From: Polyangiaceae bacterium
GTDB taxonomy: Bacteria; Myxococcota_A; Polyangia; Polyangiales; Polyangiaceae
Direction: 5' to 3'
Assembly (NCBI GenBank): GCA_947475525.1
Contig: CANJMI010000003.1
Span: 1-64,000 of the forward strand
DNA length: 64,000 nt
This document shows positions 44,010 through 55,224 of the stretch, in pieces. Position numbers and translations under genes: made by a program. Every line of letters begins with the position of its first letter. The first letter of the stretch is position 1. Under the pieces are notes generated by a model that did not search any database, had not been told where the DNA came from, and worked only from the letters and a program-made list of their open reading frames with translations.

Positions 44010-45101
44010 CTAGTCTCTCTCGGCTCGCAACGCATTGACCCCCATCGTGTCCAAGAGTTCGTCCGCTTCGAAATCGCGCCAGGCCGGGGTGCCGAGAATC
44101 GCATCGAACAGCAAGGGCGACAGGCCGTGACCGGGCCGTTTTGCGGACACGTTCTCTTCCGAGAAGAGTTCTCCCATGGCGATCGCCTTCGATGCGACCA
44201 GGCTCCGGCGCGCAATAAGCAGATTTTTCGCTTCGCTCGGACTCGGGACTTTTCGCGTGTGGCCGAGGGAGGCCGAAACCTGCCGAACGCCTTCGACGAG
44301 AGCGACGAGTTCTTGGGGGTCGAGCGAAGCACGGTGATCCGGACCCGGAAGCGACTTGTCGAGGGTGAAGTGCTTCTCGATGACCTCCGCTCCGAGCGCG
44401 ACGGCCGCGAGCGATGCGGCGATGCCCGTTGTGTGATCCGAAAATCCGACGGGCAGTCCGAATGCTTGGGAAAGCGTCGTCATGGCGCGGAGGTTCACGT
44501 CTTCGAACGGAGCAGGGTACTCCGTCGTGCAGTGAAGCAGCGTCACTCGCTCACGCAGCAGTCGCTGGCCTTGGGTGGAGGCGAATGCTTTGTCGAGCGC
44601 TCGTGGCGTTCCTAGCCAACTGGCGGCGAGTACGGAGAGTGCTTTTTCGACGTCGCCGAGCGTGGCCATTCCTGTCGACATGATGACGGGAAGGTTCGTG
44701 GCTGCGACGCGTCGCAGGAGCAGCGGATTCGTGATCTCACCGGACGGGACCTTGAGGCGGTCGACGCCGAGCTCCACGAGGCTACCGACGCTCGGTTCGT
44801 CGAATGGGGTCGAAAGGAAGCAAACGCCCTGGCGCTCGGCGTGGTGTTTGAGGGCGCCGAACTGGGCGTCGGAGAGCTCGAGCTTCCGAATCATGTCGAG
44901 CTGGGATTCGCCGCCTCCCGTCGCTAGTTCCTGATACTCCGCCTTCTTGGCCGAGCGGCTGACGACGAGCTCTGAGCGAAACGTCTGGAATTTGACGGCG
45001 TCGGCCCCACTTTTCGCGGCGACATCGATGAGCTTGATGGCACGCTCGAACGAGCCGTCGTGGTTGACTCCTGCCTCGGCGATGATGAAGACCCGACTCA
45101 A
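44010..45101 (-). CDS. neuB: N-acetylneuraminate/legionaminate-type synthase NeuB
   Basis: 363 aa from a TTG at 45101, which has AAGGGAG at correct spacing; the longer frame lacks a site. The NeuB TIM barrel starts SRVFIIAEAGVNHDGSFERA, continues LSTPFDEPSVGSL, LKVPSGEITNPLLL, VIMSTGMATLGDVEKAL, LLHCTTEYPAP and GFSDHTTGI, with metal- and PEP-binding residues kept (IEKHFTLDKSLPGPDH). A SAF domain (~300-363) ends it. It condenses PEP with a 6-carbon amino sugar into a nonulosonic acid. 30 bp separate it from divergent neuC. Confidence 0.92.
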   Translation of the reverse strand: MSRVFIIAEAGVNHDGSFERAIKLIDVAAKSGADAVKFQTFRSELVVSRSAKKAEYQELATGGGESQLDMIRKLELSDAQFGALKHHAERQGVCFLSTPFDEPSVGSLVELGVDRLKVPSGEITNPLLLRRVAATNLPVIMSTGMATLGDVEKALSVLAASWLGTPRALDKAFASTQGQRLLRERVTLLHCTTEYPAPFEDVNLRAMTTLSQAFGLPVGFSDHTTGIAASLAAVALGAEVIEKHFTLDKSLPGPDHRASLDPQELVALVEGVRQVSASLGHTRKVPSPSEAKNLLIARRSLVASKAIAMGELFSEENVSAKRPGHGLSPLLFDAILGTPAWRDFEADELLDTMGVNALRAERD

Positions 45102-45131
45102 GTTGTATCTCCCTTGTCGGTCCAGGCTACG

Positions 45132-46325
45132 TTGTCGTCGTTGAAGCCGCCAATCCATCTTCTGTTCGTGACGAGTTGTCGCTCCGACTACGGACCGGTC
45201 GCCTTGTTGCTGCGTGATTTGTTCGAGGAAACACGACTCCGGATTTCGGTTGTGGTCGGTGGGGCCCACCTCTCGGAGGTTCACGGCAGGACTGTCACGG
45301 AGGTCGAGCGAGACGGCATACCAATCGCCCATCGGCTGCACTGGCTTGCCGATGCGCGCGATTCGGCCTTCGGTAACGCGTCGGCTCGTGCCCTCGCGAT
45401 GTTCAACGACCTCTTGCGCGAGACGAAGCCGGATGCGGTCGTTCTTTACGGTGACCGTCACGAACTTCTGCCGCTCGCGACGGCGTGCGTGCTCGAGCGC
45501 ACTCCGATCGTCCACCTTTGTGGTGGCGATGTCACCGAAGGCGCGCTCGACGACCAAGTGCGGCACGCGGTCACGAAACTTTCCCATGTCCACCTCGCGA
45601 GCAGCGAGCGCTCCGCGAAGCGCATCCGTCAAATGGGCGAGGAGCCGTGGCGCGTCCACGCGGTCGGCGATCCGCTGATCGACGCGTTCGTCCGCGGGGA
45701 GCGGGCCAGTGCCGACGAGCTCGAAGCGGTTTTAGGTTTCCGCCCCGACCGCTCGACACTGCTCGTTACGCTTCACCCCACGACTCTCGAGCCGCACCTT
45801 CAGGAGCCTGAAGTCGAGGCATGCGCCGCGGCGCTCGAGAGTTACGCGGGAAGCATCATTCTCACCGCGCCCGCGCCAGACCCAGGCTTCGAGTCCATCG
45901 CCGAGCGATGGGCTCGCCTGGTTGCGACCCATCCGAAGGCGGCCTACATCGACAGCCTCGGAAGTCGGCGATACCGCGGAGCGCTTTTTGCGGTTGGCGC
46001 CATGGTGGGCAATTCTTCAAGCGGGCTCACCGAGGCTCCTTGCGTCGGGCTACCCGCCATCAATGTTGGCCGCCGACAGTCCGGCCGCGATCGTGCGGAG
46101 AACGTGATCGACGTGCCTTCGGGCGACCAGGCGGCTCTCGCTGCCGCGATACGGTTCGCGTTGGAGCCCGTGCACCAAGACCGACTTCGGAATGGCTCGC
46201 GCACAAGCCCCTATGGGGACGGACGCTCGAATCAACGGGTCATTGAGGCGCTGCTTGCGCTGCCCTCGCGTCCGCGGCTACTCGATAAGCGATTCATCGA
46301 CTATGTCGCAGCGACGAATCGGTAA
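45132..46325 (+). CDS. neuC: Hydrolysing UDP-GlcNAc-type 2-epimerase (NeuC/LegG-like)
   Basis: 397 aa from TTG 45132 (a second in-frame TTG is at 45141). GT-B-fold epimerase: FVTSCRSDYGPVALLLRDL, VLYGDRHELLPLATACVLER, HLCGGDVTEGALDDQVRHAV (NeuC signature GGDxTxGAxDxxxRHxxTK), MVGNSSSGLTEAPCVGLPAI and NVGRRQSGR. It releases the amino sugar that NeuB condenses with PEP. Which nucleotide sugar it uses (UDP-GlcNAc or a 4-amino derivative) cannot be told from sequence. The stop shares a base with the start of the next gene (TAATG). Confidence 0.88.
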   Translation: MSSLKPPIHLLFVTSCRSDYGPVALLLRDLFEETRLRISVVVGGAHLSEVHGRTVTEVERDGIPIAHRLHWLADARDSAFGNASARALAMFNDLLRETKPDAVVLYGDRHELLPLATACVLERTPIVHLCGGDVTEGALDDQVRHAVTKLSHVHLASSERSAKRIRQMGEEPWRVHAVGDPLIDAFVRGERASADELEAVLGFRPDRSTLLVTLHPTTLEPHLQEPEVEACAAALESYAGSIILTAPAPDPGFESIAERWARLVATHPKAAYIDSLGSRRYRGALFAVGAMVGNSSSGLTEAPCVGLPAINVGRRQSGRDRAENVIDVPSGDQAALAAAIRFALEPVHQDRLRNGSRTSPYGDGRSNQRVIEALLALPSRPRLLDKRFIDYVAATNR

Positions 46326-47365
46326 TGCGCGCTAGGATCCTCGAGTGTCCGTCACCCGAGTGGGATGATGCTCTTGTCGATGTGAGCCGGAGTTCGCCGC
46401 ATCACCCCGATGTCTACTTTGGGTCGGCCTACCACGCTTGGCACGCGGAGCAGGGCCACGCGCTCGCTGTCGTGGTTGAAGACGACCGCGGCGTGGCGCT
46501 GTTCTTTGCTGGACTCCTGCTGCCCATCGACGGTCGAGCCGGCGCGTTCGATCTGCAGACGCCGAACGGCTACGGTGGACCTCTGGCTCGCCCAGGGTTG
46601 TCGGCCGACAACCTAGGCTTGGCATGGCACTACGCATGTGAAGTCCTGTCAGAACGCGGCGTCGTTGCGATGCTCTTTCGGTTGCACCCTCTGTTCGACC
46701 AGCGGCCGTTCTTGCCTCCGTCGGCGCGGGTCATCGACGACCGCGTGACGGTTTACGTGCCCATCGATGAAGGCGCTGCGGTGGCGCTCGCCGCGTCGGA
46801 TTCGCGGCATCGCAACATGGTGAGCCGTGGGCAGCGTGACGCTGCTACCACTGCTTGGGTCGACGTGGACTCCCCCGAGTGGGCCGAGTTCGAGAGCCTG
46901 TACGGTGACGCGATGGCGCGTCTCGATGCGCGCAGCGAGCTAAGGTTCGGCCCCCGCTACTTTCAAGCCATGCGCGGTTCTGCGCTCGCGGAACTGGCTG
47001 TCCTTCGAGACGTTCGCGGGCTCGTGGCGGGCTCGCTGTTCCTTTGGGGGGCGGAGTTTGGTCATTACCATCTTTCGGCGCGCCGTGCGGATACACCCAA
47101 TTACGCAATGAATACGCTGGTGCATGCGGGTGTCGAGCGTGCTTGCCAACGAAGGCTCCAAGGGTTGCACCTCGGCGGCGGACTGTCCGCCGAGCCGAGC
47201 AATTCTCTCTTCCGCTTCAAGGCCACGATCGGGCGCGGACGACGGACGTTTCGCCTCGCCCGCGTCGTTTCGGACGAAGCCCGCTTCCGCTCTTTGTGCG
47301 CGGAGGCCGACGTTGCACGGGGCCTGTCAAGTGAATGGTTGCTCGGTTATCGCGATCCCGCCTAG
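46325..47365 (+). CDS. FemAB/GNAT-like acyltransferase
   Basis: 346 aa. The C-terminal half has the FemAB-like GNAT layout: MVSRGQRDAATTAWVDVDSP, LARLDARSELRFGPRYFQAM-type helix, LVAGSLFLWGAEFGHYHLSA, PNYAMNTLVHAGVERACQRR and LHLGGGLSAEPSNSLFRFKA TIG, which corresponds to the final motif of this acyltransferase group. In a nonulosonic acid operon the likely task is N-acylation of an amino sugar intermediate (the LegH/PseH step), but aminoacyl transfer is also possible. Translationally coupled to neuC. Confidence 0.65.
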   Translation: MRARILECPSPEWDDALVDVSRSSPHHPDVYFGSAYHAWHAEQGHALAVVVEDDRGVALFFAGLLLPIDGRAGAFDLQTPNGYGGPLARPGLSADNLGLAWHYACEVLSERGVVAMLFRLHPLFDQRPFLPPSARVIDDRVTVYVPIDEGAAVALAASDSRHRNMVSRGQRDAATTAWVDVDSPEWAEFESLYGDAMARLDARSELRFGPRYFQAMRGSALAELAVLRDVRGLVAGSLFLWGAEFGHYHLSARRADTPNYAMNTLVHAGVERACQRRLQGLHLGGGLSAEPSNSLFRFKATIGRGRRTFRLARVVSDEARFRSLCAEADVARGLSSEWLLGYRDPA

Positions 47366-47374
47366 GGTCGATAG

Positions 47375-48037
47375 ATGCAAGGACCCGATCCGATTTGGGA
47401 GTCGATCTTTTCATCCTCCGAGTGGGGCAAGTACCCTCCAGAGCACATCGTGCGCTTCGTCGCGCGGAACTTCTACCGAGCCGCCGCTCGGCGCTCCGTG
47501 AAGCTCTTGGACCTCGGGGCCGGTACCGGTGCTTGCACGTGGTACATGGCGCGCGAGGGCTTTTCGGTGTCTGCGATCGACGGGGCTCCATCGGCCATTC
47601 GACGCCTGCGTGAGCGTCTTGCGAGCGAGGGCCTCGAAGTCGACGCCCGGGTTGGCGATTTTGCGGAATTGCCCTGGTCGGACTGCATGTTCGATGGGGT
47701 TGTTGACAACTGCGCGCTGTACGCGAACTCGGCTGCGCACGCGTTCCGAACGCTTGCGGAGGTGGCACGCGTTCTGGCTCCCGGCGGAAAGTTCCAGAGC
47801 ACCTGGTTCTCGGACCGAACGTGGGGCTATGGCACCGGACCGCGCGCCGAACCGGGGGCGTTTCACCACGTCACCGAGGGCCCTATTGCCCATCGCGGTT
47901 TCGTTCGGTTCGTCGGTCGTCCGGAACTCGATGCGATGTTCACATCGTTCGCGGCTTTTACCGTCGAACGCTCTTCGTACACGCTGCCAGAGGGCCAGGT
48001 CGTCGAGTACTGGCACGTGAGCGCGACGAAGGGCTGA
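47375..48037 (+). CDS. Class I SAM-dependent methyltransferase
   Basis: 220 aa. Motif I LLDLGAGTGACTWYMAREGF, acidic loop SAIDGAPSAIRRLRERL, GDFAELPWSDCMFDGVVDNC (motif IV region) and VLAPGGKFQSTWF (post-motif). Small, soluble, Methyltransf_11/25 type. Third gene of the neuC operon (9-bp gap after the acyltransferase), so an O- or N-methyl group on the sugar is the likely outcome. Confidence 0.82.
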   Translation: MQGPDPIWESIFSSSEWGKYPPEHIVRFVARNFYRAAARRSVKLLDLGAGTGACTWYMAREGFSVSAIDGAPSAIRRLRERLASEGLEVDARVGDFAELPWSDCMFDGVVDNCALYANSAAHAFRTLAEVARVLAPGGKFQSTWFSDRTWGYGTGPRAEPGAFHHVTEGPIAHRGFVRFVGRPELDAMFTSFAAFTVERSSYTLPEGQVVEYWHVSATKG

Positions 48038-48047
48038 TTGGTGCAAC

Positions 48048-49436
48048 TCAGGTTCGAGCGAGGCGCCGCGCGGCTTCACGAACGAGCGCGACCCGCGCGA
48101 TGAAGGCATCGCCGCCTTCGTCCAACCGGCCTTCCCAGAGCGCCACGCCGCAGCCGACGGAAGCAAGTGCGGCAGCAGGGGAAGGGCTTTGGTCGGAAAC
48201 TCCGATGGGCATTCGTAAGGCGTCGCTGATCTCTCTCAAGTCACCCAGGCTCAACGTTTTGTGCGGGTGGTCATCGGGAGCGAGGTTCAGCACGGGTACG
48301 ACGCGATCGTAGCCCAAGCTGCGCAAGCGGCGACACGCATGGTCGAGCGTCGGGAGGTCGAGGTCCTCGCTCGCGAGCAGGGCGGGGAGCCTGTGTCCGC
48401 GCAGAACATCGGCCAAACACTCAATGGGTGCTCGCTTGAGGTCGAGAGCGATTGCGTCTGGCCGCAGCGCATCGACCAATCGCGCGGTGCTGCTGGGGCA
48501 GACATCGAGCACGAGCGTCAGACCAAGCGTTTCTGCGCTCCTCTTGAGTTCGTGAGCCCAAGTGGCCGCGGCGTCGCCGAGCGCGAATCGTAAGCCGTCG
48601 GCGCCGAGTGACGCTGCGCGCTCGACTGAATGCAGGGCCAGCCGCAGCGAAGCGAGGGGGCCCTCGACTCGTGCCAGGATGAAACAGCCGGTGCCATTGC
48701 CGACGTTTTGTGAGCCGATGGCGATGGGAAGAACGGGGAACCCCCGACCCAAGGCTTGGGCGACCGCCATGTCTTCCGGCGTGTCGATGTCGAGAACCGG
48801 ATGATCGGTCGCGAAGACCGGTTCGGTGACGCCGGGTTGAATGAAAGGTTTCCCGTCGCGTACATCCGACGCGGCCATGACGTAGGCCGCGCCAGATACC
48901 TCGTAATAAAATACCAGGTCTTGGCGACGCTCGGCCTCGTGCCCAGGCAACGCGGGTTCGAGCTTGCCCTCGACAACGCGCATGGACCATTCGAGCGGAT
49001 GTCGCCCCTGGTGCAAGCTCACGACAGGAGCGCCCGTCTCATCATGGCGCCGTACGGCATCGACGACGTGTACAGCGGTCGTAAACGGCGACGTCGCCTG
49101 CAGGAGCACGAGAGCGCGCCGGGTGCCCTCGTCGCCGAGCCGCAGCAGAAGGTGCTGGAGTACGGACATCGTTGACGCGCTGTCTCCCGCCAGCTCCGCG
49201 GGGCGCACAAAAGGTGTCTCTGCGCCCCACCGCCGGCCTTCCTCGAGGATCTCTTCCGAGTCTGAATCGACGACGACCCGCCCGCCACCAAGCGAAATCG
49301 CGGCATCGAGCGCGGTTCTCACGGCGCGTCCGACAAGGCTGATGCCCCCCACCTTGGCGAGGTTTTTTCGCGGAATACCTTTCGAGCCACCCCGCGCTGG
49401 AATGACGAAGAGTGGCGATTTGGGGTAACGGGACAT
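48048..49436 (-). CDS. neuA: CMP-nonulosonate synthetase NeuA fused to a degenerate NeuB-like barrel
   Basis: 462 aa from ATG 49436. Residues ~8-230 are a cytidylyltransferase with the hallmark PARGGSKGIPRKNL, VDSDSEEI, LLQATSPFTT and DIDTPEDMAVA; it activates the nonulosonic acid with CTP. Residues ~238-458 follow NeuB step for step but without its catalytic signatures: FILARVEGPLASLRLALHSV for FIIAEAGVNHDG, PVLNLAPDDHPHKTLSLGDL for LHCTTEYPAP, GVSDQSPSPAAALASVGCGV for GFSDHTTGI, and LWEGRLDEGGD for IEKHFTLD. Probably a pseudo-enzyme domain. Follows the LegC gene by 55 bp. Confidence 0.85.
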   Translation of the reverse strand: MSRYPKSPLFVIPARGGSKGIPRKNLAKVGGISLVGRAVRTALDAAISLGGGRVVVDSDSEEILEEGRRWGAETPFVRPAELAGDSASTMSVLQHLLLRLGDEGTRRALVLLQATSPFTTAVHVVDAVRRHDETGAPVVSLHQGRHPLEWSMRVVEGKLEPALPGHEAERRQDLVFYYEVSGAAYVMAASDVRDGKPFIQPGVTEPVFATDHPVLDIDTPEDMAVAQALGRGFPVLPIAIGSQNVGNGTGCFILARVEGPLASLRLALHSVERAASLGADGLRFALGDAAATWAHELKRSAETLGLTLVLDVCPSSTARLVDALRPDAIALDLKRAPIECLADVLRGHRLPALLASEDLDLPTLDHACRRLRSLGYDRVVPVLNLAPDDHPHKTLSLGDLREISDALRMPIGVSDQSPSPAAALASVGCGVALWEGRLDEGGDAFIARVALVREAARRLART

Positions 49437-49491: not shown

Positions 49492-50628
49492 TCATCGGGA
49501 CGCTCCCGCCAAGACGACATCGATCACGCGCTGTTGCTGCTCTGCGGGGAGTCCGACCGAGGACGGAAGGCTGAGACCGCGCTCCGCGAGCGTCTCCGCG
49601 ACGGCTCCGGTGCCGAGCCGAGGTGCCGTGCGGTACGGCGCCATGAGATGAAGGGGCGTCCAGAGCGGGCGCGCGTCGATGCCATTCTCGAGCAGCGATT
49701 GGAGGACGGCGTCACGTCGTTGCGTCGAGTCGAAGAGGACCGAGTAGAGCCAATAGGTCGCGTGCGACCACAGAACGCGCGGCGGCGGTGTGAGGTTCTC
49801 CACGCTCGCGAATGCGGAGTCGTAGCGCGCCGCGATGCTTTGCTTGGCCTGAAGGAACTCGTCGAGCCGCTCGAGCTGAGCGACGCCGAGGGCCGCGGCG
49901 GTGTTGGTCAGGCGGTAGTTGTAGCCCACCTCGTCGTGCCGGTACGCGAGCCCGGGAAGGCGCGCTTGCGTCGTGAGGTGCTTGGCCCGGCGCGCGAGGG
50001 CATCATCATCGGTGACGATCATGCCGCCACCGCCGCTGGTGATGATCTTGTTTCCATTGAACGAAAAGCAGCCGACGCGCCCGATCGTTCCGACGTGACG
50101 AGCGTTCGTGCCGACGGTCGCGCCGAGTGCTTCCGCTGCATCCTCGAGGAGCGCGATGCCATGTTCCGCACACAGCGGCACGAGTTCGCCCAGATCCGCC
50201 GGCTGCCCGAGCACATGGACGAGCTCAATCACCCTCGGCAGGCGCGCGCCGACGGCGACGCGACGCCGGATTTCCTCGGCCATCAAACCCGGATCGGCGT
50301 TCCACGTCCTCCGCTCGGAGTCGACGAGCACCGGTGTCGCGCCGAGGTAGAGGATAGGGTTTGCCGAGGCGATGAACGTCAGCGTCTGCACCCAGACCTC
50401 GTCGCCCGCTTCGACGCCAAGGACGTGCAACGCGACGTGCAGGGCGGCTGTCCCGCTCGAACACGCGACCGCGTGCTTCGAGCCCACATAGGCCGCAAAT
50501 TCGCGTTCGAACCGCTCGACGAAGGGACCGACGGACGAGACGAAGTTGGTGGCTACGCACTCGTCGAGATAGCGGCGCGCATTGCCGCCAAGGTGCGGTT
50601 CGGAGAGGGGGATGCGGTCTAAAGCCAT
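49492..50628 (-). CDS. LegC-family PLP-dependent aminotransferase
   Basis: 378 aa from ATG 50628. DegT/DnrJ/EryC1 fold: IPLSEPHLGGNARRYLDECV, ACSSGTAALHVALHVLGVEA, GDEVWVQTLTFIASANPILY, LLEDAAEALGA with the PLP-binding Asp, and FSFNGNKIITSGGGGM with the Schiff-base Lys194. Best fit is the LegC group that aminates 4-keto-6-deoxy-GlcNAc nucleotides on the way to legionaminic or related acids. It heads a minus-strand unit with neuA. 147 bp separate it from the divergent glycosyltransferase gene. Confidence 0.85.
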   Translation of the reverse strand: MALDRIPLSEPHLGGNARRYLDECVATNFVSSVGPFVERFEREFAAYVGSKHAVACSSGTAALHVALHVLGVEAGDEVWVQTLTFIASANPILYLGATPVLVDSERRTWNADPGLMAEEIRRRVAVGARLPRVIELVHVLGQPADLGELVPLCAEHGIALLEDAAEALGATVGTNARHVGTIGRVGCFSFNGNKIITSGGGGMIVTDDDALARRAKHLTTQARLPGLAYRHDEVGYNYRLTNTAAALGVAQLERLDEFLQAKQSIAARYDSAFASVENLTPPPRVLWSHATYWLYSVLFDSTQRRDAVLQSLLENGIDARPLWTPLHLMAPYRTAPRLGTGAVAETLAERGLSLPSSVGLPAEQQQRVIDVVLAGASR

Positions 50629-50775: not shown

Positions 50776-53145
50776 ATGTCGGTCCAAGCGCCATATTCTT
50801 TTCGGGACTCGGCCTCGAGGTTCCTCAATCTCGTCGACTCCATGAACCAGGCGGCCCGCCCGCCCCTCGCTGCGGACGCCCCGCGCGCGGCCGTCATCGT
50901 TTCCCCGTGGGTGGGTTGTCCGCTTCCGTGGTTCGCAATCACCGTCGCGCACTTTCTCCGACGTCGCGGCGTTCGTACGACGCTCTTGTGGAACGACCTC
51001 TGCGACTCGCTCGATCCGAGCGCGTTTGCGGCCGATACCGAGGTTATCGCGAAGGTCATCGAACAACTTCAGGGCTTCGATATCGTACGCCTTAGCGACG
51101 TCCGCCCCTTGGATGCGACCGAAGATGACGCGCGGCTCGTGGTAGCCGCGGCCCGCGCGAACGCCGTGTGGAGCAATCGCGGGTCGCTTCCGGCCGACCG
51201 AGTCGAGCGCCTCGCGGCGGCGATGGAGACGGTCCTTACGCGCTGCCTGCCCTACGTTTGCGGCTTCTTCAAGGGGCACCCGCAGTCGTTTTTTGTGGTT
51301 CCGGGAGGCATGTACGGCAGCTCAGGGCTCTACACGGCCTTGGGGCGCCGCTACGGCGTCCGTGTGTCCACCTACGATTCGGGAGCCGAGCGCCTGCTCC
51401 TTGCGACCACGGGTCCAGCGGCGTGCCAGCTCGACATCGCGCGTTGCGCGAAGGAGGCGGACGCGATCCTCGGCGACAAGGTTGGCGCAGCGCGGGAAAA
51501 GGCCCGGGCGCACCTCGATGCACGACGTTCGGGTAGCGAAAGCTACTTCACAGGGAAAGCGCACGGTGGCACGGCGATCCAGGTCGTTGCGGCCGATGCA
51601 GACGACCATCGGTATGCGAAGTGCGTCGTGCTTCCCCTCAATGTCGAATGGGACACTGCGGCCGTCGGCCTCCATCGTTTTTACCGCGACGACACCGAAT
51701 GGGCGTTGCGGACGATTGCCTTCCTTCTTGAACGCACCGACATCGACGTGGTCGTTCGCCAGCATCCAGCGACGCGCGTGTTCAGGGAGGGTGCAAAGCT
51801 CATGGCGGATGCGCTGACCGAGCGATTTGGTCACCACCCCCGTTTCCGCTTCGTCTCCGCCGACGAGCCCGTGAACAGCTACAAGCTGCTCCAAGCGGCG
51901 GTGTTGGTTTTGCCGCTGAGTTCCACGGTGGGCGTGGAAGCGGTGATGCTCGGCAAGCCGATCGTCATGGAGAGCACCGCCTACTATGCCGAGCTGCCCT
52001 TCGCGCAGGTCGTGGGCGACGAGGAGGCTTATTTTTCGCGCATTCTCGAGTGCCTGCGTTCGCCGGTCGAGTTGTCCTCCGAGCAAGTCGCGCTGGCCGA
52101 GCTTACGTACTTCTTCGCCGCAGTCGTCAATGTGGCGAAGACGAACTTCACGCCGATTCCGGACGACTTCAACCACTGGGCATCGCAATCGCTCGATCGC
52201 CTCGCGACGGAGCCTGCGTTGCAGTTGCTCGTTGAAACCTTCGTTGGCAATCGGCCTGCAGCCGCCATTCGCGCCGCGCAATTCCTTCCGGACGACGTGC
52301 CGTCCCGACGAACCGATGTCCCCTTTAGGGATGTGGTCTCCGCGATGGTCGGACGATTGAATCTTCGAGCGCGCGCCGAGACAGCGCGACCCGCTCCTCC
52401 CGCTGCGCCCGCTGCTCTCCAATTGGAGCCGCCGCCCGCTCCGCCCGCTGCGCCCGCTCCGCCGTCCGCGGAGGTGTCGGACGCGCGCGCCGGATTCAAG
52501 GCCTTCGCGAACGTGACGATGGGCGACGGCGTGCAGATCATCGGTGTCGCGAACGTCGAGATCGGCGCCGGCAGCTGCATCGGTGACTACTCGTGGCTGA
52601 ACGTTTGCGAGCGTGACGCGCGCATTCGCATTCGCATCGGCATCAACGTGCTGATCGGGCGTCAGTCGATGGTCTCGACCGGCGGCTACCTCGAGATCGG
52701 CGACTACTGTTTATTCGGGCCGCGCTGCAGCGTGGTCGATGCGGACCATGGCGTCTCGGACATCATGCGGCCGTACGGGGAGCAGACCCCGACGCTTGGT
52801 CGGAGCATTGTGGTCGAGGAGAATTGCTGGCTCGGCGCAGGCGCGGTGATCGCCGGCCACCTCACGATTGGTCGCGGCTCGGTCATCGGTGCGAACTCGC
52901 TCGTGACGAAAGACGTCGAGCCGTTTTCGATCGTCGTCGGAAGCCCGGCGCGTCTCGTGAAGCTCTACGACCCGGTGACGAAACAGTGGGAGCGGGCCGA
53001 CAACGACGCGGACGTCGCTCGCGTAGAAGCTCACCGCCGTCAGGTGCCGCTGCCCGAGCGCACCGAGTACCGGCAGATCCTTCGTCGCAACTCGCGTACG
53101 CGTGAGATTGTGCCGATCGTCGCCGGTCGCGGCGAGTGGCTCTGA
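50776..53145 (+). CDS. Capsule-type glycosyltransferase fused to a hexapeptide acetyltransferase
   Basis: 789 aa. Residues ~35-530 resemble capsule polysaccharide export/synthesis GT-B proteins (VVRQHPATRVFREGAKLMAD, FRFVSADEPVNSYKLLQAAV, VLPLSSTVGVEAVMLGKPIV). A linker of Pro/Ala repeats spans ~540-575. Residues ~580-735 are a left-handed beta-helix acetyltransferase of the maltose/galactoside type (IGAGSCIGDYSWLN, YCLFGPRCSVVDADHG, NCWLGAGAVIAGHLTIGRGS, ANSLVTKDVEPFSIVVGSPA). One protein probably both transfers and decorates sugar. AT-rich sequence at 50700-50760 upstream may hold its promoter. Confidence 0.8.
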   Translation: MSVQAPYSFRDSASRFLNLVDSMNQAARPPLAADAPRAAVIVSPWVGCPLPWFAITVAHFLRRRGVRTTLLWNDLCDSLDPSAFAADTEVIAKVIEQLQGFDIVRLSDVRPLDATEDDARLVVAAARANAVWSNRGSLPADRVERLAAAMETVLTRCLPYVCGFFKGHPQSFFVVPGGMYGSSGLYTALGRRYGVRVSTYDSGAERLLLATTGPAACQLDIARCAKEADAILGDKVGAAREKARAHLDARRSGSESYFTGKAHGGTAIQVVAADADDHRYAKCVVLPLNVEWDTAAVGLHRFYRDDTEWALRTIAFLLERTDIDVVVRQHPATRVFREGAKLMADALTERFGHHPRFRFVSADEPVNSYKLLQAAVLVLPLSSTVGVEAVMLGKPIVMESTAYYAELPFAQVVGDEEAYFSRILECLRSPVELSSEQVALAELTYFFAAVVNVAKTNFTPIPDDFNHWASQSLDRLATEPALQLLVETFVGNRPAAAIRAAQFLPDDVPSRRTDVPFRDVVSAMVGRLNLRARAETARPAPPAAPAALQLEPPPAPPAAPAPPSAEVSDARAGFKAFANVTMGDGVQIIGVANVEIGAGSCIGDYSWLNVCERDARIRIRIGINVLIGRQSMVSTGGYLEIGDYCLFGPRCSVVDADHGVSDIMRPYGEQTPTLGRSIVVEENCWLGAGAVIAGHLTIGRGSVIGANSLVTKDVEPFSIVVGSPARLVKLYDPVTKQWERADNDADVARVEAHRRQVPLPERTEYRQILRRNSRTREIVPIVAGRGEWL

Positions 53146-53157
53146 GCCACCAGGGCG

Positions 53158-54210
53158 CTATTTCTCGGTGCGCTGGGCGCTCTGGAATTCGCTCGGAAGG
53201 CCGATGTCCTGCCACGACTCCTGCATGCGGTATGCGCCGACGGGCATCTTGCGCGCCATGCAATTGTCGAGGAGCGACGTCATCGTGAACGGGCCGACTT
53301 CGGGCACGAGGTCGAGCGACTCGGGCGAGAGCACGTAGATGCCCGCGTTGATGTCGTAACCAAATTCCGGCTTCTCCTCGAGCGAGACGACCTGCCCGCC
53401 TTCGACCTTGCAAACACCGTACGGGACCTTCATCACGTGACGGCGAAGCGCGACCGTCGCGGCGTTGCCAGCCGCGGCGTGCAGGGCGAAGAGCTTGGTT
53501 AAGTTCACGTTCGTCAGGAGGTCGCCGTTCATCACGAGCAACGGTTGCGTAGGACGCACCGGAAGGAGCTTCAGCGCGCCGGCGGTTCCAAGCGCTTCCC
53601 GTTCGCGGAGGTACTCGATTCGGCAGTGAAAGCCCGTGCCGTTGCCGAAGTGGTCCTCGATCATGCTGGCCATGTGATTGACCGATAGGAAGATCCGACG
53701 AATGCCGTGGCTCACGATAAGATTGACGATACGCTCGAGAATGGGACGGTCTCCGACCGGCAGCATCGGTTTCGGGAGTCCGTGGGTCAGCTCACCTAGG
53801 CGCTCGCCTTTGCCGCCGGCCATCACGACCGCGAAGCTCCCGGTGTCTTGCCCAAGAAGCGCGGCCCACAGGGTATGGAGGCGTACGAGGGTGCCGTCGG
53901 CATCGACCACGGGCACGCAGCGGATCCCACCCATGAGCATCGTCTGCACAGCTTCGCTGCGCTCCGTCTCGGGGCTGAGCTTGGTAAAGCGAGGGTTTGC
54001 CGCCGTCATGATGCAGCTCTCGAGCGACTCTCCGCGCAGGAGGGCTCGGCGAATGTCACCGTCGGTCGTCATCGCGATCAGGCGATTGCGTGAGTCGCAG
54101 ATAAGCGCGACCTCGAGACCCGAGCGGTTGATCGCTACCATCGCATCGCGGATGGTCGCCTCGGGCTTGACAACCAAGGTTTCAAGCGGGGCTTTTTCGA
54201 TCGAGTTCAT
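53158..54210 (-). CDS. ptmE: CBS-domain sugar-phosphate nucleotidyltransferase (PtmE-like)
   Basis: 350 aa from ATG 54210, which overlaps the previous stop as ATGA. A tandem CBS pair at ~8-125 (KPEATIRDAMVAINRSGLEV, ALICDSRNRLIAMTTDGDIR) precedes an NTP-transferase domain (VVMAGGKGERLGELTHGLPK, PMLPVGDRPILERIVNLIVS, EREALGTAGALKLL, VMNGDLLTNVN). This is the architecture of PtmE, which activates glucosamine-1-phosphate for legionaminic acid synthesis. The longer open frame upstream is antisense to the epimerase and has no family sequence. Confidence 0.85.
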   Translation of the reverse strand: MNSIEKAPLETLVVKPEATIRDAMVAINRSGLEVALICDSRNRLIAMTTDGDIRRALLRGESLESCIMTAANPRFTKLSPETERSEAVQTMLMGGIRCVPVVDADGTLVRLHTLWAALLGQDTGSFAVVMAGGKGERLGELTHGLPKPMLPVGDRPILERIVNLIVSHGIRRIFLSVNHMASMIEDHFGNGTGFHCRIEYLREREALGTAGALKLLPVRPTQPLLVMNGDLLTNVNLTKLFALHAAAGNAATVALRRHVMKVPYGVCKVEGGQVVSLEEKPEFGYDINAGIYVLSPESLDLVPEVGPFTMTSLLDNCMARKMPVGAYRMQESWQDIGLPSEFQSAQRTEK

Positions 54211-55145
54211 CCGCGCCGTCCTTTGAGTGCGTCTGCCAGCCAGCGGCAGTAGCGATGCAGTCCGTCCGCAAGCGTGACTCTCTCTCTGTAGCCGAGGGCC
54301 TCGAGCTTGGAGATGTTCGCGCGCCAGTTTGTTGGGTAGCCAGGCAACGTTTCGTCGGTGAACGTGATGTGCTTTCGGCAGTCGAGTTGCCGCGCGAGGA
54401 GCTCTGTCAAGCTGGCGACGCTCGTCTCGACACCGCTTGCGACGTTGAATACCGCAGGCCCAACGAGGGGTGCTTTCGCGACGCATTCCACGGCCTGCGC
54501 CACGTCGCGCGCGTGGACGAAATCTCGGGTCTCATGGCCAGTGCCGAAGACGCGCACGTCGTCGCCCCGCGTGAGCATCTGCGTGCATAGATCGTGGACG
54601 ACTTGGCGCTGTAGACGCTCGCCGTATGCGGAGAAGATGCGGAGGGTCGCCGTGCGCATGCCGAACAGCGTGCGGTACTCCTCGACGACGAGCTCGCAGA
54701 GCCATTTGTGGTAGCCGTACGGCGACATTGGCTGCGGGCCCGTCTCCTCGCGAATGGGCAATTCTGGCGGGTTTCCGTAGACCGCGGCCGACGAAAGCAG
54801 GACGAACGTGGCGCGCGGCGCATGCTGTCGCAGCGTATCGAGCACGTACGCGCAGACATCGACCGATTGCTGGAAATCGAAGTACGGGCGCGTGACCGAT
54901 TCGGCCACCTTCGCGCTCGCGGCGCCGTGCACGACGAGGTCCGGCTTGAAGGTCGTGACTGCGCGAACGAACGCGGGGTCCGGGAGTGTCATCCCGGCGA
55001 GCAACTCCAGCCCGGGGTAGCTCGATGCGAAGGCCACGTCGGTCGCGAAGCGCCCTACCGCGGCCACGGGGTGTCCCGCCTCGCCGAAGTACTGGCAGAT
55101 GTGCGAACCGAGAAAGCCGCCGGCGCCGGTCACCATCACCTTCAT
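54207..55145 (-). CDS. NAD-dependent epimerase/dehydratase
   Basis: 312 aa from ATG 55145. Extended SDR: VMVTGAGGFLGSHICQYFG, VHGAASAKVAESV, LLSSAAVYGNPPELP, catalytic Ser and SPYGYHKWLCE with YxxxK, RIFSAYGERLQRQV and FNVASGVETSVASL. A nucleotide-sugar 4-epimerase, reductase or dehydratase; the exact reaction is open. Coupled to ptmE by the ATGA overlap, so it belongs to the same pathway. Divergent from the dehydratase gene with 79 bp between. Confidence 0.82.
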   Translation of the reverse strand: MKVMVTGAGGFLGSHICQYFGEAGHPVAAVGRFATDVAFASSYPGLELLAGMTLPDPAFVRAVTTFKPDLVVHGAASAKVAESVTRPYFDFQQSVDVCAYVLDTLRQHAPRATFVLLSSAAVYGNPPELPIREETGPQPMSPYGYHKWLCELVVEEYRTLFGMRTATLRIFSAYGERLQRQVVHDLCTQMLTRGDDVRVFGTGHETRDFVHARDVAQAVECVAKAPLVGPAVFNVASGVETSVASLTELLARQLDCRKHITFTDETLPGYPTNWRANISKLEALGYRERVTLADGLHRYCRWLADALKGRRG

Positions 55146-55224
55146 GCGGGTCAACTATAGCTTCTGCGTCTCGAGAACATGGAGTACCAATCGAGCGGGA
55201 GATGCTCGCGAGCCGCGAAAATCC

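Follow-up and report, generated by a model that had tools for sequence, protein, structure and literature searches.

The window, a 64,000-nucleotide stretch of a Polyangiaceae contig, encodes a protein in which a CMP-nonulosonate synthetase (NeuA) continues into a C-terminal barrel that very probably descends from NeuB and is dead as a synthase. An earlier note on this DNA had described a pseudo-synthase fused to the next enzyme of the pathway, a description now backed by profiles, predicted fold, a residue table and orthologues. The fuller explanation, that this is a NeuA with a dead NeuB barrel left from a once bifunctional enzyme and serving as a structural module, seems to us reasonably probable. 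The gene and its two parts are as follows.

48048..49436, minus strand: fused gene, NeuA domain plus putative pseudo-NeuB barrel, 462 aa (open reading frame and profile searches)
48747..49436, minus strand: NeuA (CMP-nonulosonate synthetase) domain, residues 1-230 (PF02348, match to 1eyr, Foldseek)
48051..48746, minus strand: predicted pseudo-NeuB (beta/alpha)8 barrel, residues 231-462, without SAF domain and with catalytic residues lost (profiles, fold, residue table)

The extent first assigned to the gene is correct: it opens at an ATG at 49436 and ends at a stop at 48048-48050, although a longer form starting at 49520 is possible. A scan for repeats and for promoters and terminators of the gene returned nothing informative. 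Its N-terminal half is an intact NeuA domain. The Pfam family CTP_transf_3 (PF02348) matches residues 10-137 above its cut-off (52.1 against 22.6 bits), phmmer aligns residues 6-227 to the CMP-Neu5Ac synthetase of Neisseria meningitidis (1eyr, E 6e-25), and 9ftc and 1eyr are the top Foldseek matches. The motifs RGGSKGIPRKN and DIDTPED are intact, and the nucleotide-binding motif R15-N25, Q113 and the DxD pair D216/D218 align with 1eyr and are invariant in both of our alignments (A1 and A2). With the model of the pseudaminic acid cytidylyltransferase PseF (TIGR03584) the protein scored 118.9 bits, below the equivalog cut-off of 205.7. It is the only clear NeuA of its genome, and this half presumably still couples CTP to a nine-carbon sugar to give the CMP-sugar.

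The earlier note had proposed a survey of other myxobacteria for the same fusion, and such a survey found the two-domain protein in two further genomes of the same genus, G001 and G003 (46% and 40% identical to the window protein, respectively). The open-frame layout is identical in the three separate genomes, which rules out an artefact of frame or assembly. Residues 231-462 of the window protein, taken alone, match no Pfam model, so the proposed likeness to NeuB had rested on faint resemblance. The isolated C-domains of G001 and G003 exceed the Pfam NeuB cut-off (PF03102, 22.1 bits) with 35.0 and 29.1 bits, and a profile of the three C-domains retrieves bona fide NeuBs, e.g. that of G024, down to E 3e-19. 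These scores also carry a warning for annotation: the dead domains of the sister species score above the Pfam threshold, and a functional synthase might be read into them.

The predicted structures agree with the profiles. A first AlphaFold2 model, given the three same-genus sequences as sole input and no intact NeuB rows, has a low pLDDT of 58, yet eight beta-alpha units are visible and its C-terminal half matches SpsE (1vli) and PseI (8h2c) in Foldseek. The second model, of the C-domain, has a pLDDT of 90.8 and a pTM of 0.89; it was built on 32 rows that include NeuBs and is therefore biased towards their fold by construction. With this model Foldseek ranked SpsE and PseI first among the matches listed, and VIA-align gave Z-scores of 25.4 for PseI (rmsd 2.6, 220 aligned), 24.3 for SpsE and 23.8 for the N. 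meningitidis NeuB, followed by KDO8P synthase at 23.2, so that the NeuB family leads by a small margin. A fold other than a TIM barrel, or closer affinity to another TIM-barrel family, had been named as what would speak against descent from NeuB; the prediction is of a barrel, and the best 50 matches listed per aligner (Foldseek and VIA-align) are all PEP-condensing synthases (NeuB, PseI, SpsE, KDO8PS and DAH7PS). From this ranking, the modelled fold falls among the PEP-condensing synthases, and the NeuB family is nearest by a narrow lead. The resemblance to NeuB thus stands on the three-sequence profile, the Pfam scores of the two orthologues, the eight beta-alpha units and the NeuB-family synthases among the top PDB matches.

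We compared the three dead-fusion proteins with 29 intact NeuB rows, position by position, in the numbering of the N. meningitidis NeuB. The checked list includes positions of that structure that we take to bind metal and phosphate. Its active-site residues come from a published account (PMC6795526). E25, K53, Q55, K129, S154, Y186, H215 and H236 are identical in 29/29 intact rows and lost in 3/3 dead-fusion proteins, so that the residues for PEP, metal and sugar in this set (E25, K53, K129, H215 and H236) are gone 5/5 from each. Among the three proteins, S132 is retained by G001 only, in which E134 has become Asp, and S213, E234 and D247 by the window protein only; D214 is the sole checked position identical in all three. 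The substitutes at the lost catalytic positions differ among the species. Most of the segment after strand 2 is absent from the dead barrels, and there is no SAF (antifreeze-like) domain, the chain ending right after the barrel. The erosion first noticed in the catalytic signatures therefore extends residue by residue to nearly all checked positions, and it suggests that synthase activity has been lost.

Among about 580 genomes, the dead fusion was seen solely in these three species of the window's genus; the genus is represented by two more genomes, of lower completeness, whose matches include no dead fusion. A genome of the same family, G083, carries an intact-looking counterpart.

L061:4568-6526, minus strand: intact-looking NeuA-NeuB-SAF fusion of G083 (655-codon open frame)

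Its NeuB half is full (310 bits), keeps the NeuB motifs and is followed by a SAF domain, and both halves apparently are intact. No other PF03102 match was found in the G083 genome. Beside the fusion lie genes of NeuC type, for an acetyltransferase, and of PtmE-like and LegB-like type, the last scoring 412 bits with the LegB model. The search for further full-length fusions in the class and phylum (with A2, E 1e-40) found none with four or five candidates scored per genome, a depth at which weakly similar dead fusions may be missed. Two candidates from elsewhere were rejected as fusions. The Sinorhizobium hit H11, which spans 92% of the window protein as a single uninterrupted match, proved to be two genes, a NeuA and a NeuB with SAF; the Azospirillum hit H12 is a NeuA whose neighbour, a gene in its own right, bears the annotation sugar phosphate isomerase/epimerase. 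In Sinorhizobium meliloti (CP050512.1), the gene at L118:3209-4210 is annotated as the PHA biosynthesis repressor PhaR, likely a misannotation given its 230.9 bits for NeuB and 40.6 for SAF.

An intact NeuB was claimed some 3 kb from the fused gene, and its profile scores bear this out. It and the other neighbours of the fused gene are as follows.

44010..45101, minus strand: stand-alone intact NeuB with SAF, TTG start inferred (PF03102 309.6 bits, SAF 30.6 bits, TIGR03569 456 against a cut-off of 399.65)
45060..46325, plus strand: NeuC-type hydrolysing UDP-GlcNAc 2-epimerase (TIGR03568 344 bits against a cut-off of 235.9; mechanical ORF start, the true one probably further in)
46325..47365, plus strand: GNAT/FemAB-like acyltransferase, weak match (similar neighbour in G001)
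47375..48037, plus strand: SAM methyltransferase (similar neighbour in G001)
49492..50619, minus strand: LegC-like aminotransferase, the next gene upstream of the fused one and co-oriented with it (TIGR04181 418.6 bits against a cut-off of 420)
50776..53145, plus strand: Capsule_synth-type protein with C-terminal hexapeptide acetyltransferase, 789 aa (same arrangement in G001, 818 aa)
53158..54486, minus strand: CBS plus nucleotidyltransferase protein, which we take to be PtmE-like (same architecture in G001 and G083)
54207..55154, minus strand: NAD-dependent epimerase/dehydratase, weakly LegB-like (TIGR04180 88.6 bits against a cut-off of 475)

The neighbourhood in G001 matches in gene type, order and orientation from the acyltransferase through the methyltransferase, the fused gene, the LegC-like aminotransferase and the capsule/hexapeptide protein to the PtmE-like gene. 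The LegC-like aminotransferase, NeuC and the PtmE-like gene point to a possible product of legionaminic-acid type, but the dehydratase is no more than weakly LegB-like. With the LegB model the latter scores far below the G083 copy (88.6 against 412 bits), and the window's sugar may differ. The protein at 50776-53145 possibly unites steps of glycosyl and acetyl transfer. About 20 additional residues precede the HCTTEYPAP strand in the stand-alone NeuBs of the window, G001, G089, G091 and G517, a segment that none of the other NeuBs compared has.

In the NeuB tree the stand-alone NeuB of the window pairs with that of G001, and that of G003 (L030:15999-17183) is placed elsewhere; a single clade of the three species' stand-alone NeuBs is rejected by the AU test (p = 0.0019). 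The ancestry of the stand-alone gene thus differs within the genus, so that the synthase gene was seemingly exchanged while the NeuA fusion stayed. This bears on whether the barrel could be a copy of the neighbouring gene. A tree that joins the dead barrels to the stand-alone NeuBs of window/G001 or of G003 is rejected (AU p = 0.02 and 0.03), and one that joins them to NeuBs of the G083/G224/G309 type is not rejected (p = 0.5); with G083 alone, p is 0.107, neither a rejection nor a demonstration, in the presence of long pseudo-barrel branches. A p value of about 0.02 is modest and subject to distortion by such branches. The dead barrels retain, at the N-terminus, an IG..IG-like stretch seen in G083-type NeuBs and missing from the stand-alone ones, and the extra segment of the window and G001 stand-alone NeuBs is missing from the dead barrels. 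Duplication of the neighbouring NeuB is disfavoured by the AU tests, the N-terminal stretch and the extra segment, and the gene at 44010..45101 is probably not the parent of the pseudo-domain. A first tree of all NeuBs had placed the dead barrels by long branches alone and was left out of the inference of origin. Because the pseudo-barrel branches are very long, the exact parent of the barrel is not fixed.

The NeuA tree places G083 as sister to the three dead-fusion proteins (support 98/92). The earlier note thus missed the likely origin of the protein, a bifunctional NeuA-NeuB fusion of which G083 keeps an intact-looking example. Pairs of adjacent genes are the likely starting point of such a fusion: neuA and neuB overlap by 4 nt on the Sinorhizobium pSymB and abut in G224. 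The simplest history would start with adjacent neuA and neuB genes that fused into one bifunctional enzyme, whose synthase half was lost after another, separate NeuB gene had taken over that step in the window's genus; we infer this order of events from the sequences compared. From the fused NeuB half the residues for substrate and metal would then have disappeared, along with the SAF domain and the loop that follows strand 2, the barrel shell staying under selection. Pseudoenzymes usually arise by gene duplication. This one, it seems, formed within a bifunctional fusion protein after one of its two activities had become available from a second gene. Separate adjacent genes, an intact fusion and a dead fusion are all present in living relatives, which makes the reason for keeping the dead domain directly testable.

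Is the barrel kept, or is it decaying? Across the three species the pairwise identity is 27-33% in the barrel and 53-59% in the NeuA half. The excess of identity over chance in the barrel comes to 0.36-0.40 for second codon positions and -0.01 to 0.12 for third ones; GC content by codon position is similar to that of the NeuA half. Second positions conserved beside nearly saturated third positions imply that the amino acids of the barrel are constrained, less than those of NeuA, and the barrel is under selection and does not decay freely. Passive decay of a vestige without a role would fit the very fast evolution and the lost motifs, but the frame has stayed open in three species at 40-46% identity to the window protein and the codon positions argue against it, and we regard it as very improbable. 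With its predicted fold kept, its catalytic residues lost and its retention across species under selection, the C-terminal half has the marks of a pseudoenzyme domain.

The invariant residues of the barrel in the three sequences are mainly Gly, Ala, Pro and Leu, with D415, S417 and S419 on strand 7 and some arginines. Such a set is what one would sooner expect of a folded shell than of a binding pocket, although three sequences give this reading a narrow basis. TIM barrels often switch activity, and the invariant R349, R370, S419 and E454 are rare in intact NeuBs, as might be expected of a barrel that has acquired a new catalytic function; among the three sequences, however, no invariant polar set beyond D415/S417/S419 is evident at the barrel mouth, and a new activity is hardly to be expected. 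The same residues bear on a barrel that would sense a pathway metabolite (the sugar acid, the CMP-sugar or PEP) and tune NeuA allosterically. The invariant D-x-S-x-S (D415, S417, S419) lies at the end of strand 7, at the SDHT site of the active enzyme, and most intact NeuBs have Gly in place of S419. The residues in contact with the PEP phosphate, metal and sugar are nearly all lost, however, with discordant replacements among species, and the remaining invariant residues are mostly small or hydrophobic, which leaves such a sensor improbable.

The proposal made with the first description was a scaffold that channels the sugar acid from NeuB to NeuA. The dead barrel would bind the stand-alone NeuB in the way one NeuB subunit binds another, and the acid would be handed to the NeuA half. 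There are precedents for a catalytically dead paralogue activating its partner (PMC5201418), NeuB is a homodimer formed by domain swapping (PMC6795526), and a separate intact NeuB is present in 3/3 species with the dead fusion. On the other side, the barrel has no SAF domain, the part exchanged between subunits in NeuB dimers, and it evolves far faster than NeuA. The stand-alone NeuB of G003 is moreover not orthologous to that of window/G001, so a partner-specific interface would need rebuilding. Channelling is weakened because the stand-alone NeuBs do not form one clade while all three species keep the dead barrel, and we consider it unlikely. The change of partner speaks against a partner-specific dock; contact through a conserved NeuB surface is compatible with it. 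In a broader form of the idea, the pseudo-synthase descends from a bifunctional ancestor with its intact form in a relative, and links whichever NeuB the cell uses to NeuA, by allostery or as a docking module; we hold this to be somewhat unlikely.

We place a structural role first among the possible functions, followed by channelling and then allostery, and give it slightly less than an even chance. The separate NeuB would supply the sugar acid and the NeuA half would turn it into the CMP-sugar, the barrel helping this half to fold or to assemble into an oligomer on which NeuA had come to depend while the two were fused. Against this, most NeuAs in the comparison work as single-domain proteins.

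Several known systems resemble the fused protein in part. The G083 fusion shares with it the domain order, a sister NeuA domain and PtmE-like and NeuC-type genes nearby, but its NeuB half keeps motifs and SAF and is the genome's only NeuB match. In Nonomuraea gerenzanensis, NeuA and NeuB also share one open frame (L114:1863-4055), with the difference that a HAD-like stretch lies between them, the NeuB part scores 280.8 bits without a SAF match, and the organism belongs to another phylum. This three-domain frame suggests several nonulosonate steps on one chain. Animal CMAS combines NeuA with a HAD domain, and the NeuA of Streptococcus agalactiae carries an esterase domain; both share with the window protein an extra C-terminal domain on NeuA, which in the latter is apparently a dead version of the preceding pathway enzyme. 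With the NeuB/PseI/SpsE synthases (PF03102; 1xuu, 8h2c, 1vli) the barrel shares fold and descent in sequence, but SAF, the loop that follows strand 2 and the residues for catalysis and metal are missing from it. Neither pseudoenzymes (PMC5201418) nor NeuA-NeuB fusions as such are new, and a synthase-phosphatase fusion within these pathways has been described (PMC3438082); in the open-access literature we found no earlier description of a pseudo-NeuB domain or a NeuA-NeuB fusion, nor of a dead NeuB barrel on NeuA. The prozyme of Trypanosoma AdoMetDC is likewise a dead enzyme copy kept by selection, but it sits on a separate chain and activates its own paralogue (PMC5201418), whereas the dead copy in the window is fused to a different enzyme.
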